Shown here one piece after another: positions 39,520 through 53,917 of a DNA stretch of 64,000 nt (position 1 is the stretch's first letter; the number at the start of each line of letters is the position of its first letter). The position numbers and the translations under genes are program-made. Source of the DNA: Halosimplex litoreum (lineage in GTDB: Archaea > Halobacteriota > Halobacteria > Halobacteriales > Haloarculaceae). Below the pieces are notes generated by a model. It did not search any database and had not been told where the DNA came from. It saw only the letters and a list, made by a program, of their open reading frames with translations. The stretch covers positions 3,533,836 to 3,597,835 of the forward strand of contig NZ_CP065856.1 of NCBI RefSeq assembly GCF_016065055.1. The letters run 5' to 3'.

Positions 39520-39882
39520 TGTTGGTGTGCGTGTTCGTTCCGTCGGCTCTGGGACGTCGACGAACGAACGCCGCACCGGTCCGGGCCGTCCCACACGGCG
39601 GATCTATCGCTCCCGTCGTGTGGAGACGCGACGCTGCGAAGCCGATTCCCCCCCTTGCAGCACGGGTCCCCCTGTCGCACGTCCCAGTTCGATCGTCTAG
39701 TTGCGTTCAATTAAACGTTCTCATCGAAAGACACGATCGGGTAGTTGAGGATACTACCAAGTTACTAGCCAGATACTGGCCGGCCGGGGACCCCACTCGC
39801 TCGCCGTTCCGGACGGGACCACTTTCACTCCACGGTCCAAACCCACTTGACGGCGTAGTCCCAACCGGAGAGCCGAGGTCAC
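39520..39882. other. Divergent promoter region of the G8 and helicase genes
   Basis: This stretch of about 360 bp has no gene. TTTAATTG on the minus strand (about 39709-39717) could be a promoter for the G8 gene, giving a long leader of about 160 nt. An inverted repeat GGTAGT/ACTACC (39740-39758) and the AT-richer stretch up to about 39780 lie on the helicase side and may be an operator. Nothing else is recognisable. Confidence 0.4.
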
Positions 39883-42627
39883 ATGGGAGGACGCGAGCTG
39901 TTGGACGCGGCGGACGTGGGCGTCGACGCCGCCGAGGCCGCGATCGACGACGGCGACGTGCTCGAGTTGCTGGAGCCGCCGGTCCGGGAGTGGTGGGTCG
40001 AGCAGTTCGGCGCGTTCGTCCCCGAGAACGACGGGTTCTTCACGCCGCCCCAGAAAGAGGCCGTCCCGCTCATCCACGAGGGCGAGAACTCGCTCATCGC
40101 GGCGCCGACGGGCAGCGGCAAGACGTTGAGTGCGTTCTGTTCGATCATCAACGAGCTGTTCCGCCGCGAGCGCGCCGACGGACTCGAAAATTCGGTGTAC
40201 TGCCTGTACGTCTCCCCGCTCAAGTCGCTCGCCAACGACATCCACCGCAACCTGGAGGTGCCCCTCGACGGCATCACGGCGAAACTCGACGAGCGGGGCG
40301 AGGACGCCGAGATACGCCACGCGATCCGCCACGGCGACACCAGCGACAGCGAGCGCCAGAAGATGCTAGAGACGACGCCGCACATCCTCAACACGACGCC
40401 CGAAACCCTCGCGATCCTCCTGAACAGTCCGAAGTTCAGGGAGAAACTGCGGACCGTCGAGTACGTCGTCGTCGACGAGATCCACAGTCTCGCCGAGAAC
40501 AAGCGCGGGACACATCTCTCGGTGTCGCTGGAGCGACTCGAGGCGCTCGCCCACGGGTCGCCGACCCGCATCGGCTGCTCGGCGACGGTCGAACCACTCG
40601 ACGCGATGGCGGAGTTCCTGGTTGGCCAGGCGTCGCCCGGCGGCGACCCCCGCGACTACGAACTCGTCGACGCTCGCTTCGCCCGGGAGTTCGACGTGGA
40701 ACTGACGTGTCCGACCGACGACCTGGTGAACACGCCGCCGGACGTGGTCACCGACCGGTTCTATCGCGACCTGGACGACCTGATCGGCGAGCACACCAAC
40801 ACGCTCGTGTTCACGAACACCCGGTCTGGCGCCGAGCGCGTCCTGCAGAACCTCCGCGAGCGCAGCGACGACTACGACGAGGACAATTCCGGCTGTCACC
40901 ACGGCAGCCTCTCGAAAGAGCGTCGCCAGGAGATCGAGGAGAAGCTCAAATCCGGCGCCCTCGACGTGGTGACCACCTCGACGAGCCTTGAACTCGGCAT
41001 CGACATGCCCCACATCGACCTGGTCGTGCAGGTCGGATCGCCCAAATCCGTCGCCGCTCTGCTCCAGCGCGTGGGCCGGGCGGGCCACCAGCTCGGCGAG
41101 ACGGTGACGGGCCGGGTCGTCGCGCTCGATCGCGACGAACTCGTCGAGTGTGCGGTGATGCTCAAGAAGGCCGAGGAGGGGTTCGTCGACCGGGTGTTCG
41201 TCCCCGAGCGCGCCCAGGACGTGGCTGCCCAGCACGTCTACGGCATGGCGATCGCCGAGATCCGGCCCGAGGCGGAGACCCGAGCTATCCTCGAACGGGC
41301 GTACCCCTACCGGAACTACACCGACGAGGAGTGGGAGTCGCTGATGCGGTATCTCACCGCCGACTACGAGGGGATGGAGGACAAGAACGTCTACGCGAAG
41401 GTGTGGCGCGACACCAACGACGCGCCCGACGGCGAACACCACTACGAGGAGTACCCCGTCGGCGAGGACCTGATGGGCAAGCGCGGCCGGCTCGCCCGGG
41501 TCATCTACATGACCAACATCGGCACCATCCCCGATTCGTTTACTTGCGACGTGTACACTCGGTCGGGCGACGAATGGGTCGGCCAGTTAGACGAGGAGTA
41601 CCTCGACACCCTCGAGTCGGGCGACGTGTTCGTCCTCGGGGGCCGGAACTTCGAGTACCGCTACCGCCGCGGGTCGAAGGTGTACGTCGACCCGACGAGC
41701 GCACGACCGACCGTCCCCTCGTGGTTCTCCGAGCGGTTGCCGCTCTCCTACGATCTGGGCCGGGAGATCCTGATCTTTCAGCGGGAACTGCTGGAGAAGA
41801 TGGATCGGGGCGGCGCCGGTGCGGTGCGACACTGGCTTCGGGAGTACCCGCTGGACGAGCACAGCGTCCGGGCCGTCGCGCGGATGTTCGAGCAGCAGGT
41901 GAAGTACGCCGGCGCCGAGAGCGTCAGCACCGACGAGCGCATCGCCGTCGAGGAGGAACTCGACCGCGAGGAGTACGAACGGCGCTACTACGTTCACTCG
42001 AACTACGGTCGCCGGTTCAACGACGGCTTCTCGCGGCTGCTGGCCTACCGGATCGCACAGGAGGCCAACGCCAACGTCCAGGTCGCCGTCGCCGACAACG
42101 GCTTCTCGCTCTCGATGCCGCTGAACCGGAAAGTCGACGTGCTCGGTGTCATCGACGATATCCACCCCGCCGACGTGCGCGCGGACCTGCGGGCGAGCCT
42201 GGACGGCACCGACCTGCTCCAGCGCTACTTCCGGATCGACGCGACGCGGGCGCTGATGATCCTCAAACGCTACAAGGGCTACGAGAAGTCGGCGGCCGAA
42301 CAGCAGATGAACTCGGAGATGCTGCTCGGGTTCGCCGAGGGCCTGGAGGGGTTCGCCGTCATCGAGGAGACCTATCGGGAAATTCTGGAGGACAAGCTCA
42401 ACGTCGGTGCGATCGAGGACGTGCTGGAAGCCGTCCAAGCCGACGAGGTCGCCGTCGAGCACTTCCGCGTCCGCTCGCCGTCGCCGCGGGCGTTCGGCCT
42501 CGCGACGCTGATGGCCTCGGACGTGGTGCTCGCCGAGGACGAGAGCGAGGTCCTCCAGCGCTTCCACGAGCGCGTCATGGAGGAGATCGGCGAGGAAGAT
42601 CTCGGCGAGTCCTCGCTCACGGGATAA
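39883..42627 (+). CDS. Lhr-type superfamily 2 ATP-dependent helicase
   Basis: This is a 914-residue helicase of the Lhr-core family. APTGSGKTLSAF is the Walker A motif, VVVDEIHSLAENKRGTHL the DEIH Walker B motif, CSATVEP motif III, VFTNTRSGAERVL motif IV, and TSTSLELGIDMPHIDLVVQV with LLQRVGRAGHQ motifs V and VI. The C-terminal Lhr-core region has FTCDVYTRSGDEWVGQLDEE, VFVLGGRNFEYR and RSPSPRAFGLATLM. Lhr proteins are 3'-5' DNA/RNA translocases linked to repair or RNA processing. Length is as expected for the core without the long bacterial tail. Its stop is 1 bp from the stop of the convergent HEAT gene. Confidence 0.95.
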   Translation: MGGRELLDAADVGVDAAEAAIDDGDVLELLEPPVREWWVEQFGAFVPENDGFFTPPQKEAVPLIHEGENSLIAAPTGSGKTLSAFCSIINELFRRERADGLENSVYCLYVSPLKSLANDIHRNLEVPLDGITAKLDERGEDAEIRHAIRHGDTSDSERQKMLETTPHILNTTPETLAILLNSPKFREKLRTVEYVVVDEIHSLAENKRGTHLSVSLERLEALAHGSPTRIGCSATVEPLDAMAEFLVGQASPGGDPRDYELVDARFAREFDVELTCPTDDLVNTPPDVVTDRFYRDLDDLIGEHTNTLVFTNTRSGAERVLQNLRERSDDYDEDNSGCHHGSLSKERRQEIEEKLKSGALDVVTTSTSLELGIDMPHIDLVVQVGSPKSVAALLQRVGRAGHQLGETVTGRVVALDRDELVECAVMLKKAEEGFVDRVFVPERAQDVAAQHVYGMAIAEIRPEAETRAILERAYPYRNYTDEEWESLMRYLTADYEGMEDKNVYAKVWRDTNDAPDGEHHYEEYPVGEDLMGKRGRLARVIYMTNIGTIPDSFTCDVYTRSGDEWVGQLDEEYLDTLESGDVFVLGGRNFEYRYRRGSKVYVDPTSARPTVPSWFSERLPLSYDLGREILIFQRELLEKMDRGGAGAVRHWLREYPLDEHSVRAVARMFEQQVKYAGAESVSTDERIAVEEELDREEYERRYYVHSNYGRRFNDGFSRLLAYRIAQEANANVQVAVADNGFSLSMPLNRKVDVLGVIDDIHPADVRADLRASLDGTDLLQRYFRIDATRALMILKRYKGYEKSAAEQQMNSEMLLGFAEGLEGFAVIEETYREILEDKLNVGAIEDVLEAVQADEVAVEHFRVRSPSPRAFGLATLMASDVVLAEDESEVLQRFHERVMEEIGEEDLGESSLTG

Positions 42628-48712: not shown

Positions 48713-49936
48713 TCAGACGAGCAAGGTATCGAGCGCGTCGGGGACGACGAGCACATCGCTGCCCGGTTCGACGGCGTCGGCGACGGAATCGCGGGTGTCC
48801 ATCAGACACTCCTCGACGACTGCCGGGGCCTCGCTGTCGGTGACGTAGATGTCGTGGTCCCTGAGCGCGCGGGCGACGACGAACGCACGCTGGGCGCCGG
48901 GCTCGTAGCCCTCGCGCATCTCCTCGTAGAGCGCTTCGGCGCTCTCGGCCGATGAGAGCCGGTCGTAGAAGCGGCGTTCGCCGGTCCCGTCGCCTGCACC
49001 TTCCGGGAGCGCGGCGGGGATCACGACGCGGCCGCCGTCCCGAAGGGGATTGTTCGCACCCAGGACCACGTAGGTCGCCGCTCGCGTGGTCTGGTAGAGG
49101 TTGGCGTCCTTCGGCGCACCGACGCCCGCGACGACGGCGTCGTATCCGTCCACGACGGGCGTGGCGAGCGCGTCGCGGGCCGTCTCGGCCAGGTCGCGGA
49201 CCACTGCCCGAGGATCGCCCGCGGCGGCGCCGAGGATGCCGCTGGGGCTGTGGGTCACGTTCAGCGAGAACGCGACGCCCGCCAGGTCGCCCGCCTCGTC
49301 GACGAACTCCCGGAAGGGGTTGTCGTCGACGCGACCCAGCCGCACGCCGTCGCGGGCGAGCAGTTCGGGGCCGTGGGAGTGGCCGATCTGCGACTCACTG
49401 CCGGCGCCGACGACGACGGTCTTGGCGCCGCCGGAGAACCCGGCGTACTGGTGGGGTTCGACCATCCCCGTGGCGAGGACGGTGTCGACCGCCGTCAGGG
49501 TCTCGTTGATCTCGATGGGGACCCCGTCGACCGTCCCGACCTCGACTATCGCGTCGGGGTCGTGGTTGATCGCGAGGTCGGCGTGGTCGCCGAGCGCGCG
49601 CTCGATCTCCGCCTCGTCCATCGGTCGGTGGAGTCCGAGCCCGAGGATCACCGTCACCTGCTCGCGGGCCACGCCCGCCGTCCGGAGTTCGTCCAGCAGG
49701 ACATCGAGCAACACGTCGTCCGGGGTCGCGCGGGTCACGTCGGTGACGACGATTCCGACGGTGTCGTCGGGGTCGACGCGACGAGCGAGTCGCGGGCCGT
49801 GCGGGTCGGCGACGGCTGCTTCGGCGGCCGACCGCGGGTCCACGGCTTCGCCCCCGGGCGGCCGACAGACGGTCACGTCGCAGTCGGGGAGCGATACGGA
49901 GACGGTCCCCTCGCCCAGCGGGAGTTCGACTGACAC
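48713..49936 (-). CDS. larA: LarA-family lactate racemase-like protein
   Basis: The 407-residue protein matches nickel-pincer racemase LarA. VILGLGLHRPMDEAEIERAL carries the catalytic His (His108 in the Lactiplantibacillus enzyme). VEPHQYAGFSGGAKTVVVG places His and the cofactor-attached Lys ten residues apart (His174/Lys184). GHSHG places another His sixteen residues after that Lys (His200). Spacings are therefore conserved. LarA needs the Ni-pincer nucleotide made by LarB, LarC and LarE, none of which is nearby. Substrates in LarA homologues vary among 2-hydroxy acids. GTG 49936 (VSVELPLGEGTVSVSLPD) is preferred to the GTG at 49981. Confidence 0.86.
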   Translation of the reverse strand: MSVELPLGEGTVSVSLPDCDVTVCRPPGGEAVDPRSAAEAAVADPHGPRLARRVDPDDTVGIVVTDVTRATPDDVLLDVLLDELRTAGVAREQVTVILGLGLHRPMDEAEIERALGDHADLAINHDPDAIVEVGTVDGVPIEINETLTAVDTVLATGMVEPHQYAGFSGGAKTVVVGAGSESQIGHSHGPELLARDGVRLGRVDDNPFREFVDEAGDLAGVAFSLNVTHSPSGILGAAAGDPRAVVRDLAETARDALATPVVDGYDAVVAGVGAPKDANLYQTTRAATYVVLGANNPLRDGGRVVIPAALPEGAGDGTGERRFYDRLSSAESAEALYEEMREGYEPGAQRAFVVARALRDHDIYVTDSEAPAVVEECLMDTRDSVADAVEPGSDVLVVPDALDTLLV

Positions 49937-49999
49937 GTTCGTCCGTAGCACGGCCGCCACCGAGAGCCTACCGGTCACCACCGGTTCGGAACTCCGCTC

Positions 50000-50848
50000 T
50001 CAGTCGCCCGTGGACGTGCCCTCGAACCCGTCGAACCGCCCGACAAGCGCCGGCAGCGCCACGATACCGACGACTAGTCCGAGGTTGGCGACCGCCGTCG
50101 GGATCAACGCCGGCTCGACCGTCTCGACGACGACGATGGCGGCGACGAGGAACGCGACGCCGCCGCCGGTGAGCGCCGCCCGCTCGGTCCACGAGCGGAA
50201 CCGCTCGGCACGAGTTCGCCACAGCGCCCCCGCCAGCCCGCCGACGCTCCCCCCGGCGGCCAGCGCCGCGTCGCCGGGTTCGGTCGTCAGGACCGCGGCC
50301 GGCACGGCGCAGACGACCGCGAGTCCGAAGACCGCAGCCGGGCCGCGGTCGAGCGCGACGGCGACCACGCCGACCATCACGAGTCCGACGGCGACGCCGG
50401 CGAGCACGTCGCCGAGGTAGTGGACGCCGATGACGACCCGGGAGAGCCCGACCAGGGCGACCAGCGCGCCCGCCCCCGCGAGGAGCGTCGGGTCACGGTA
50501 GCGGTCGAGCGCCACCAGGGTCCCGCCGTAGACGGTTGTCGCCGCGATGGCGTGCCCGCTCGGGAAGCCGACGGGGCTCGGGTCAGCGGCGACCCGCCGG
50601 ACGGCCGCCGGCGGTCGCGGCAGCCCGAACCAGTACTTCAGCGCCAGCGTCAGCGACACCGCGACGAAGGCGACGCCCACCACCGTCAGCAACTCGCGCC
50701 GGCGGGACTGGTCGTTCCAGTACGCCAGCGACAGCGCCACCATCAGGAACTTCGCGCCCCCGAGGACCGTGAGCAGCCCGAACACCGGCACCAGATACCC
50801 CGGGACGGCCCCCCGGATCGCCTCGCTCGCCGCGACCAGCCGGAACAT
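50000..50848 (-). CDS. PAP2-superfamily membrane phosphatase (paralogue 2)
   Basis: This is a 282-residue homologue of the gene at 15925-16800. It has KYWFGLPRP, GFPSGHAIAATTVYGG and SRVVIGVHYLGD (the three PAP2 motifs), preceded by GAVPGYLVPVFGLLTVLG and followed by a hydrophobic C-terminal half. The common layout points to one ancestral gene. TATAAA (plus 50873-50878) lies 27 bp before ATG 50848, so the message is leaderless and the longer reading from 50887 is wrong. A 46-bp tandem array sits just upstream of this promoter. Confidence 0.9.
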   Translation of the reverse strand: MFRLVAASEAIRGAVPGYLVPVFGLLTVLGGAKFLMVALSLAYWNDQSRRRELLTVVGVAFVAVSLTLALKYWFGLPRPPAAVRRVAADPSPVGFPSGHAIAATTVYGGTLVALDRYRDPTLLAGAGALVALVGLSRVVIGVHYLGDVLAGVAVGLVMVGVVAVALDRGPAAVFGLAVVCAVPAAVLTTEPGDAALAAGGSVGGLAGALWRTRAERFRSWTERAALTGGGVAFLVAAIVVVETVEPALIPTAVANLGLVVGIVALPALVGRFDGFEGTSTGD

Positions 50849-50872
50849 ATCCGAGTCGCGGCCCGCCGCCCG

Positions 50873-50878
50873 TTTATA
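50873..50878 (-). promoter_or_regulatory. TATA box of the second PAP2 gene
   Basis: TATAAA on the minus strand, centred 27-28 bp upstream of ATG 50848. The transcript is expected to be leaderless. Confidence 0.6.
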
Positions 50879-50926
50879 CCTTCCCACCGCCGGTGGCCGC
50901 CAGCGGCCCCGCCGAGGCGACCGGAA

Positions 50927-51110
50927 AACTAATCATAAATCCTCGCCACGGAGTGAAACTGAAACGGTCGGTAACTAGATATAAACCCTGGCCACACGGT
51001 GAAAGTGGAGCGGCGACTCACTAGTCAAAAGTGATAGCCACGGGGTGAAAGTGAAAGTACGGATCGCTAGTAAAAAATCATGGCCACGGGGCGAAAGTGG
51101 AAAACGACGG
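50927..51110. repeat. Four tandem units with an exact 46-bp period
   Basis: GCCACG/A-type boxes begin at 50945, 50991, 51037 and 51083, exactly 46 bp apart. Each is followed by a GTGAAAGTG-like stretch and preceded by an A/T-rich ACTAG-containing box. CTAG occupies the same phase in the middle three (50975, 51021, 51067), and the first unit has CTAA there. Minus-strand reading of the core is CACTTTCACCCCGTGGC. The array sits between the 3' end of the Dna2-like gene and the PAP2 promoter, about 50-230 bp upstream of the TATA box. It could be a tandem operator, iterons or a minisatellite. It is not a CRISPR array. Confidence 0.85.
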
Positions 51111-51145
51111 TTGACGACTTCCAGCAGTGAAAATACGATCGCCGG

Positions 51146-53917
51146 TCAGCGCGCCCACTCGACCATCCGACCGTAGGTGTCGTCGGTGGCGAGAGCGTCG
51201 GCGTCGCCGACGAGGACGAGCGCCTTCTTGGCGCGGGTGAGCGCGACGTTGACGCGGCGGTAGTCCTCGAAGATGGGCGAGTCCAGCGACCCCGTCGCGA
51301 CGAACGAGATGACGATGACCTCCTTGCTGGAGCCCTGGAAGCGGTCGACGGTGTCGACGGCCACGTCGTCGGGGAGTCGCTTGCCGATCGCCGCGACCTG
51401 CGCGCGGAACGGCGCGATGACGCCGATCTCGTCGGCCGGGACGCCCGCCTCGCGATAGGCCCCGACCGTCTCCGCCACGGTCTCGGCCTCGGTCGGATTC
51501 GTGTTCCCGTTCGCACTCCCGTCGGGGTCGACGAACGCGACCTGGTTTCGGAGGTGGTCGGGGAGCGCGCCCACGTCGACACCGTCGAGTTTTCGGAGGT
51601 GCTGGCCCGCCACTTCACCGGTCGCGGGTCGCAACTGCCCGTCGTAGAACTCCCGGGATGCGAACGCCTGGATGCGCTGGGCCATGCGGTACTGCCGGTC
51701 GAGCATGACGGAGGCGTCGGGATAGCGCTCGATGAGCCGCTGGAACAGCGACCGCGAGAGCGCGGCGCCGGGGGCGGGGTTCCCGTCCTCGTCGGTCGGG
51801 AGGTCACCGGCGTCGGGCTCGTCGGCCTGGACGACCGGCGGGAGCTGCTGGTGGTCGCCGACGAGGACGAACCGCTCGGCGAGGTTCGTCGCCGCCAAGG
51901 TACCGGGTTCGGTGAGCTGGCCGGCCTCGTCGACGACGGCCACGTCGAAGTCCTGCTCGCGCATGATCCGCGAGCCGCAGGTAGCGGTCGTCGCCGCGAC
52001 GACCCGTGCGTCGCGCAACTCGGCAACCCGCTCGTCGGGGTCGCCCGCTCGTTCCAGTCTGTACTCCTGCATGTCGGCGCGGACGCCGCTCTCGGTGCCG
52101 ACGCGGACGAAGTCGGTAAAGCCCTGCTCGACGAGCGCTTCGAGCGCGTTGTCGACCGCCCGGTTGGTAAAGGCCGACAGCAGGACGCGTTCGCCCCGAT
52201 CGACGAGCGCTTGCACGACGTGTGCCAGCGTATACGTCTTGCCGGTGCCCGGCGGGCCGTGGATCAGCGCGCAGTCCTCGCAGCCGACCGCGAGTTCGAC
52301 GGCCTCGTTCTGGGCGTCGTTGTTCGGAACGAACGTCTCCTCGACCCGGCCGAACTCGGGTTCGCGACGGCCGAACAGCACGTCCTTCTCCTCGGGCGAC
52401 TGGGTGAGGACGGCGTCGTGCAGCGCCGTGAGCATCCGGTCGGTCGAAAGTTCGGAGGGGTACACGTCGAGGCGACGCAGTTCGACCGGCTCGTCGGCGG
52501 TGACGACGATCTCCGGACCGCGGGCGGCCTCGCCGCCGTCGGCGGTCGGGTCGTCGGTCTCCCGGTCGTCACCGCTCCCTCCAAGCCGCTCGACGCGGGC
52601 GAGTTCGGCCTCGCCGGCGATCGGGTCGCCGTCGCTCGCGAGGACGAGATCGCCCTCGCGGATCTTCGAGACCGCGCCGGTCCCGCGAGCGCGCAGTTCC
52701 CAGGTGCCGCCGTCGAGTTCACGCCGGTCGGTCGGTTCGAGGTCGACGAGCGCGCGGTCGTCGTCGGCCCGTTCTTCGGGGCTCTGCTCCCAGAGCTTGG
52801 CGTACTCCCGGTGGACGGCGCGCCGTTCGCGCTCGATGGACTCGTAGACGCGGTCGAAGTACTCGCGCTCTTCGTCGGGGACCGGCGAGCCGACCACGCC
52901 GGCTTTGGACTCCTGGCCGAGCCGGCCGGAGACGGCCATACAGGTGTCCTGCTCGAAGCAGTACTCGCACTTGGCGTCGGCCTCGTAGCCGGTCGGCACG
53001 TCGACGCCGTACTCCATGGCGGCCAGCGCGTTGCGGGTCCGGAGGACGAACTTCAGGAAGCCCGAGCCGATCGAGAACTCCTTGGCGGGCGAGAGGTCGC
53101 CGGACTCCTCGTTGCGTTCGACGGCGGCGTTCTTCGTGTACAACAGGGTGCCCGTGTCCGGCGGTTCGCCGCGACGCTCGCCGAGGATGAGCGCGTAGCA
53201 GGTCGCCTGCACCTTGTCGTGGAATCGGGGTTCGCGCTTGGTGTTCTTGCCCGTCTTCAGCTCGACGGGCATCCCGCGACGAACGGCGTCCGCTCGCCCC
53301 TTCAGCCCGTAGGTCTCGCTGACCAGCGTCATCTCCGAGCGCCACTCGTCTTCGTCCGTGAGCGTTCCCTGCTGGAGCCACCCTTCGATCGCCGAGGCGT
53401 TCTGGCGCACCTCCTCGCGGACCTCTTCGGCGCTCCGGCCGAGCATCCCGAGTTCGAGCCCGGCCTCCTCGACGCGCTCGTCGATGGACTCGTCGAGGTC
53501 GCGCCCCCTGAGGAGGTCGCCGAACACCTCGTGGACGATGGTCCCCTTGACCACGGGGTAGGCGTTGGGCACGCCGCCGATCTTGTTGAGGTAGTACATC
53601 CGCGGGCACTGCACCCACGAGCGCACGTCGGTCACGTCCACGAGGAAGTCCGGTTCGACGACGACCATCGAGTCGCCCGTCGTCGAGAACTGCTGTTCGC
53701 CGCGGTACTCGCGCTCTTCGGGGTCGGTCACCGCCAACTCCATCCCGGTTTCGAGGTACGTCGCCGTCTCGGTCCACTTGTCCCACAGCGTCACGGTCGT
53801 CGGCTCGCCACGGCCTCGGTCGGGCCTGAGACTCACCTCGACGAGTTCGCTCTCGCCGTACTGCGTCGAGACGGTCTTCGGGTCGCTCACGTCGACGACG
53901 ACACCGCGGATAGTCAC
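51146..53917 (-). CDS. Dna2-like Fe-S nuclease/SF1 helicase
   Basis: This 923-residue protein has a Dna2-like layout. An N-terminal OB-like region (1-95) precedes a Cas4/RecB-type PD-(D/E)XK nuclease with Cys104 (WVQCPRMYYL), His129 (VHEVFG), Asp210 (LKGRADAV), Glu219/Lys221 (VELKTGK) and Cys317, Cys320 and Cys326 (KCEYCFEQDTC), which together would bind a 4Fe-4S cluster. The SF1 helicase has GPPGTGKTYTL (about 555), VVDEAGQLTEP, GDHQQLPPVV, LDRQYRM and DTVDRFQGSSKEV with NVALTRAKKALVLVGD. Dna2 trims 5' flaps and resects ends. The start is GTG 53917. It lies 39 bp after the MoxR stop and is probably the last gene of that operon. Confidence 0.93.
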   Translation of the reverse strand: MTIRGVVVDVSDPKTVSTQYGESELVEVSLRPDRGRGEPTTVTLWDKWTETATYLETGMELAVTDPEEREYRGEQQFSTTGDSMVVVEPDFLVDVTDVRSWVQCPRMYYLNKIGGVPNAYPVVKGTIVHEVFGDLLRGRDLDESIDERVEEAGLELGMLGRSAEEVREEVRQNASAIEGWLQQGTLTDEDEWRSEMTLVSETYGLKGRADAVRRGMPVELKTGKNTKREPRFHDKVQATCYALILGERRGEPPDTGTLLYTKNAAVERNEESGDLSPAKEFSIGSGFLKFVLRTRNALAAMEYGVDVPTGYEADAKCEYCFEQDTCMAVSGRLGQESKAGVVGSPVPDEEREYFDRVYESIERERRAVHREYAKLWEQSPEERADDDRALVDLEPTDRRELDGGTWELRARGTGAVSKIREGDLVLASDGDPIAGEAELARVERLGGSGDDRETDDPTADGGEAARGPEIVVTADEPVELRRLDVYPSELSTDRMLTALHDAVLTQSPEEKDVLFGRREPEFGRVEETFVPNNDAQNEAVELAVGCEDCALIHGPPGTGKTYTLAHVVQALVDRGERVLLSAFTNRAVDNALEALVEQGFTDFVRVGTESGVRADMQEYRLERAGDPDERVAELRDARVVAATTATCGSRIMREQDFDVAVVDEAGQLTEPGTLAATNLAERFVLVGDHQQLPPVVQADEPDAGDLPTDEDGNPAPGAALSRSLFQRLIERYPDASVMLDRQYRMAQRIQAFASREFYDGQLRPATGEVAGQHLRKLDGVDVGALPDHLRNQVAFVDPDGSANGNTNPTEAETVAETVGAYREAGVPADEIGVIAPFRAQVAAIGKRLPDDVAVDTVDRFQGSSKEVIVISFVATGSLDSPIFEDYRRVNVALTRAKKALVLVGDADALATDDTYGRMVEWAR

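Follow-up and report, generated by a model that had tools for sequence, protein, structure and literature searches.

The window analysed here is a 64,000-nucleotide stretch of Halosimplex litoreum DNA and part of a 4.16-Mb single-contig genome. Between the 3' end of a gene encoding a Dna2-like nuclease/helicase and a gene encoding a PAP2-superfamily membrane phosphatase (here denoted PAP2) lies an array of tandem units oriented toward PAP2 (Table 1). The PAP2 ATG at 50848 and the TATA box upstream of it are placed as expected for a leaderless promoter, and the LarA-like gene behind PAP2 is likely co-transcribed with it. An intrinsic-terminator scan of positions 50700-51300 found no terminator. 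Elsewhere in the window, a single degenerate box of the same motif family precedes a gene encoding an Lhr-type helicase; beside this box we noticed three 11-bp repeats, GATACTAGCCA, at 39750-39781, where CTAG is found too.

Table 1. Features of the PAP2 locus and of the Lhr-type helicase locus (window coordinates)
Feature	Position	Strand	Remarks
Lhr-type helicase box, CACTTTCACTCCACGG	39820..39835	+	Single, degenerate, same motif family; 63 nt upstream of the Lhr-type helicase gene; Lhr orthologs elsewhere carry the box
Lhr-type ATP-dependent helicase gene (DEAD_assoc, WH_Lhr)	39883..42627	+	
LarA-like gene (PF09861)	48713..49981	-	18 bp after PAP2
PAP2-superfamily membrane phosphatase gene (PF01569)	50000..50848	-	Sole gene directly downstream of the array
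TATA box of the PAP2 leaderless promoter	50873..50878	-	TTTATA on the plus strand; 59-73 bp from box 1 in 7 species
Tandem array, four 46-bp units	50927..51101	-	Oriented toward PAP2; from repeat search; kept in 7/7 Halosimplex genomes read
A/T-rich TATA-like element, unit 1	50928..50939	-	ACTAATCATAAA on the plus strand; CTAG lost
Box 1	50945..50961	-	Minus strand runs on as TTTCAGTTTCACTCCG; 1 mismatch to TTTCACTTTCACYCCG
TATA-like element, unit 2	50974..50985	-	CTAG at 50975
Box 2	50991..51007	-	CACTTTCACCGTG variant, kept in all 7 species
A/T-rich element, unit 3	51020..51030	-	CTAG at 51021
Box 3	51037..51053	-	Minus strand TTTCACTTTCACCCCG; exact TTTCACTTTCACYCCG match; includes the published 11-mer TTTCACTTTCA at 51046-51056
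A/T-rich element, unit 4	51066..51077	-	CTAG at 51067
Box 4	51083..51099	-	Minus strand TTCCACTTTCGCCCCG; 2 mismatches to TTTCACTTTCACYCCG
Dna2-like nuclease/helicase gene (PF08696)	51146..53917	-	3' end faces the array

GCCACGG and its variants begin at 50945, 50991, 51037 and 51083, giving a period of exactly 46 bp, and the units diverge among themselves by about 30%, which confirms the coordinates and spacing of the four tandem units that the first-pass annotation had placed upstream of PAP2. A repeat search returned a three-copy family with spacings of 46 and 46 bp and 67-71% identity to the reference copy. Tandem Repeats Finder, run on the window, did not report the array, as expected at such unit divergence. 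Read on the minus strand, toward PAP2, the core of the array is CACTTTCACYCCG. Allowing up to 3 mismatches, the 16-base core matched the window seven times, as compared with 0.47 matches expected; none of 100 shuffles reached seven, and four of the seven matches are the array units. With at most one mismatch, the 11-mer TTTCACTTTCA had two matches in the window (0.04 expected), both inside the array: the exact one in box 3 and one with a single mismatch at 50954-50964. The remaining two units carry it with 2 mismatches. Three of the four boxes lie within 2 mismatches of TTTCACTTTCACYCCG; box 3 matches all 16 bases and has an A at position -2.

On the minus strand each box is followed, about 9 bp on, by an A/T-rich element that mostly includes CTAG. 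These elements are probably TATA-like in every unit, with a CTAG site in all but unit 1; those of units 3 and 4 are poor TATA boxes. Compared with canonical promoters, the elements are shifted about 3 bp toward the box (about +25 vs. +28). The alternating ACTAG box of the first-pass annotation thus stands for three units and fails for unit 1, which has ACTAAT instead. CTAG is rarer than expected across the window (22 found, 52 expected), and the accessible text of PMC6471742 describes it as the site that a conserved orphan methyltransferase of Halobacteria targets. We regard the retention of CTAG in most units as a lead and not as a result.

Eight genomes of the genus were available, including our own, and the array was read in seven of them (G001, 71% complete, was left out). 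All seven carry the array upstream of PAP2, with three to five units. Five genomes (G002, G003, G004, G006 and G007) have three units at 46 and 46 bp, our genome has four at 46, 46 and 46 bp, and H. aquaticum (G005) has five at 43, 46, 45 and 46 bp. The position upstream of PAP2 and a near-constant 46-bp period are hence common to these relatives; a period that never changes, as had been claimed, is true of the window's own genome and not of H. aquaticum. Among named records, an array-specific pattern matched only Halosimplex (H. aquaticum, H. pelagicum, H. carlsbadense and H. salinum). The 138-bp array of the five three-unit species aligns without gaps, with a mean pairwise identity of 96% in the boxes, 77% in the A/T-rich/CTAG segment and 83% in the short linker. 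Since this gapless alignment and the near-identity of the boxes are kept while the distance from the PAP2 TATA box to box 1 varies (59, 59, 59, 59, 61, 67 and 73 bp in the seven species), the array is under constraint. The earlier proposal of selection on spacing survives to this extent. Strict selection for 46 bp does not follow from it, as duplication of a unit would account for the shared period equally well, the number of units varies and H. aquaticum departs from the period. Two Halosimplex genomes (G000:C1:4123966-4124023, L269, and G006:C1:3060353-3060410, L271) also share another box pair, spaced by about 49 bp, with a small unnamed ORF downstream.

Outside the genus the picture at PAP2 is different. 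Among the PAP2 loci fetched, the array was present in 6/6 from Halosimplex (G005 was outside this sample), and all 24 loci of other genera had neither an array nor a single box upstream, so PAP2 is not a conserved box target. In several other genera PAP2 follows the Dna2-like gene after a short gap, with no array. Exact double boxes of the form CACTTTCACYCCG-N15..44-CACTTTCACYCCG were found in none of 293 genomes, a null that is uninformative because the window's own array fails the pattern too. A looser box-pair pattern matched 9 of 392 genomes, namely all three sampled Halosimplex genomes and six others. One of these six matches lies at an orc1 promoter (G032) and two look alike to it (G268, G403); two look low-complexity (G109, G186) and one is unexplained (G392).

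The single box is widespread. The exact sequence TTTCACTTTCACYCCG was found in 164 of 243 Halobacteriales genomes, whereas the reversed control gave one match in one genome. In a sample of the phylum comprising 246 genomes (43 Halobacteriales, the rest outside), ANTTTCACTTTCACYCCG occurred in 34, only three of which lie outside the order. To name the genes downstream, one representative per cluster was scanned with family profiles. In a non-random sample of 90 box sites (30 automatically fetched loci and 60 hand-chosen among the matches listed, with two families dominant), 36 precede genes of seven DNA repair or recombination families: 11 Lhr-type helicases, 7 RPA, 6 topoisomerase VI-B, and 3 each of Hef, RadA, UvrA and RadB-like proteins, the last a weak assignment below the curated cut-off. 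The remaining targets are mostly small unnamed proteins or unclear. A TATA-like element follows the box by about 12-14 bp in most of the 90 sites, the distance from the start of the box to the chosen ATG is 56-71 nt in 54 of them, and an A at -2 is present in 46 of 57 non-redundant sites, all selected for TTTCACTTTC. At these sites the box is a single promoter element. The best matches of our genome outside the array include those at top6B (0 mismatches), radA (1), RPA (1), hef (2), an orc1/cdc6 gene (2) and mutS (3), and there is one exact match at 2.269 Mb without a clear gene.

The radA loci were sampled independently of the motif. Out of 30, 17 carry the exact 11-mer and 22 carry it within one mismatch, at a near-constant position. 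The reversed 11-mer was found at the same loci exactly in 8/30, within one mismatch in 12/30 and within two in 21/30; being nearly contained in the extended box it is no independent control, and the real evidence is therefore the fixed position. Searching the core in this genome and in related haloarchaea, as the first-pass annotation had suggested, thus returned a conserved haloarchaeal promoter motif. Across Halobacteriales its position is nearly fixed relative to the genes that follow it, namely radA, RPA, top6B, uvrA, hef and those for Lhr-type helicases and RadB-like proteins. The box-bearing genes have the look of a common damage regulon, for which our literature searches gave no named regulator. 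They are not all known to be UV-induced, as uvrA was not induced in Halobacterium according to the available text of PMC1224876.

Several features of individual box sites were noticed along the way. Eleven of them (L037, L094, L098, L164, L171, L252, L253, L256, L264, L265 and L277) share a conserved TCACACGC with a C/T-rich stretch, at roughly +58 to +76 relative to the box and close to where transcription should begin, mostly without a leaderless ATG. These sites possibly specify a damage-induced small RNA or leader; Rfam gave no match for nine loci searched, eight of the eleven and L270. The commonest single non-helicase target is a family of cysteine-containing proteins of about 50 residues (13/90 sites; L134, L137, L141, L170, L173-L176, L180, L182 and others), one representative of which had no Pfam or NCBIfam match. 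The radA promoters (L286-L315) share one more conserved element, approximately TGTTAACGNG, which lies between the UV box and TATA. In a non-haloarchaeal relative outside Halobacteriales (L266), a full box and a TATA-like element precede a gene that, from its translation, apparently encodes a radical-SAM protein. At L145 the box precedes an ORF resembling TnpB/transposase (putative), recalling the UV-induced npa of Halobacterium.

Taken together with its place and orientation, the array reads, in our judgement with somewhat better than even probability, as a cis-regulatory DNA-damage region of PAP2, multi-copy and specific to the genus. It would consist of tandem copies of the haloarchaeal UV/DNA-damage box, the 11-mer TTTCACTTTCA extended to ANTTTCACTTTCACYCCG. 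A putative regulator would occupy the boxes once DNA is damaged and increase PAP2 transcription, probably together with that of the LarA-like gene. Transcription might start from the units' own TATA-like elements, or the boxes might act on the PAP2 TATA some 60-70 bp away, and several boxes could provide higher occupancy or several start sites. Several facts weigh against this reading: PAP2 has a TATA box of its own; box 1 lies 59-73 bp from it, as compared with the usual distance of about 12 bp; the units' TATA-like elements are too near the box, and two of them are poor; the PAP2 loci examined outside the genus lack a box; and not all box-bearing genes are known to be UV-induced. The first-pass annotation had suggested a cooperative operator. 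The operator is borne out by the conserved promoter motif and by the presence of the array throughout Halosimplex, while cooperativity is conjectural.

The array might instead be the operator of a different regulator, with a site that only looks like the UV box; PAP2 would then answer to some other cue, for example phosphate, envelope or lipid stress. PAP2 is no repair gene, and the units have GTGG after the box, a 9-bp gap between box and TATA-like element and CTAG, all absent from canonical UV promoters. However, box 3 matches the 16-mer perfectly, down to the A at -2 seen in most non-redundant sites, and three of the four boxes lie within 2 mismatches of it; we consider this alternative unlikely.

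The array could serve something other than PAP2, either as a decoy that titrates the regulator or as promoters from which a short RNA would be made. The multiple sites could sequester a regulator, every unit has a TATA-like element, and some single boxes elsewhere precede conserved non-ATG sequence. The array, however, always lies directly upstream of PAP2 and in the orientation of PAP2, and an Rfam search at the array gave no match, so that such a role appears improbable. A more elaborate form of damage control, which we likewise give little weight, is a methylation-sensitive switch in which UV boxes and CTAG sites in the 46-bp register would bind a cooperative regulator. If true, DNA damage would elicit from a membrane phosphatase a response that is sharp, dose-dependent or epigenetic, and the array would be an archaeal counterpart of arrayed operators.

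That the array is a leftover of tandem duplication, retained largely by chance, we consider very unlikely. Duplication alone would preserve the period, and three to five units are found in different species; yet the array aligns without gaps, its boxes are better conserved than the segments between them, the box variant of unit 2 is kept in all seven species, and CTAG is mostly kept despite its depletion across the window.

The first-pass annotation had also raised replication-type iterons, and tandem phased A/T-containing units beside a Dna2-like gene could suggest an origin bound by Orc1/Cdc6. A family search of the genome placed orc1/cdc6 genes above the family cut-off at 0.14, 1.98, 2.50 and 2.69 Mb and a weak match at 3.95 Mb; there was none in the window (3.53-3.60 Mb), and the nearest, the weak match, is about 0.35 Mb off. 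The pattern TCCACNGGAAACGRAGGG, derived from sequences near two orc1 genes elsewhere and presumably an ORB sequence, had no match in the window with up to 3 mismatches. GC skew, proposed earlier as a check for an origin, shows no marked turn at the array. With all three tests negative, and the boxes elsewhere being single promoter elements, an origin here is so improbable that we dropped it.

The preferred reading, damage-responsive control of PAP2, would make this phosphatase a candidate non-repair target of the damage response, in a group of organisms for which the SOS response is thought to be absent according to the accessible part of a 2017 review (PMC5626843). The Halosimplex array would also offer a natural multi-site bait for the putative regulator, and a test case for the number and spacing of sites that the regulator needs.

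Known systems resemble the array to different degrees. Like haloarchaeal ORBs and plasmid iterons, it is made of short repeated sites in an intergenic region, but its sequence differs and no orc gene is adjacent. In Saccharolobus islandicus, Orc1-2 binds the DNA Damage Response Element ANTTTC (PMC9738581, in the part available to us). The haloarchaeal box in its extended form, ANTTTCACTTTC, can be read as two ANTTTC hexamers side by side, and the link to damage genes is common to both systems; the element is a hexamer there and a 16-18-mer in haloarchaea. ANTTTC is found in haloarchaeal damage-gene promoters, where the A at -2 recurs among sites selected for TTTCACTTTC. We considered Orc1 as an autoregulated regulator, as the window's own genome has a box at 2 mismatches at its orc1 gene at 2.689 Mb. 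This was the only one of 30 loci of that orc1 family across the order with a box within 4 mismatches, so an Orc1-2-like haloarchaeal regulator is unsupported. Separately, orc1 genes in several genera (L223-L229 and similar loci) keep GTGAAAGTGATG at the start codon.

The closest relative is the UV-B motif of Halobacterium sp. NRC-1. In the parts of Boubriak et al. 2008 (PMC2556686) available to us, the 11-bp TTTCACTTTCA is reported upstream of TATA in the UV-B-induced radA1, top6B, vng17 and vng280, with a near-match at npa, a transposase-like gene, and comparable motifs at radA of other haloarchaea and of Methanospirillum, and the authors propose it as a regulator-binding site. The single box is thus not new. 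The array shares with it the core sequence, including the 11-mer itself, and a location upstream of TATA-like elements, and top6B and radA of our own genome carry the motif. There, however, the motif occurs as single copies about 50 bases upstream of starts (PMC2556686), whereas the Halosimplex array has three to five tandem copies at 46 bp, farther upstream and before PAP2. As to the published layout, with a TATA box close by and a start codon about 50 nt away, an A/T-rich element follows each box by about 9 bp and the PAP2 TATA lies 59-73 bp from box 1. As far as our searches reach, which covered the literature by motif strings (including TTTCACTTTCAC, CACTTTCACC and TTTCACTTTCA) and by topic, the arrangement of the box in tandem, its setting before PAP2, the longer consensus and the broader range of targets appear to be new.
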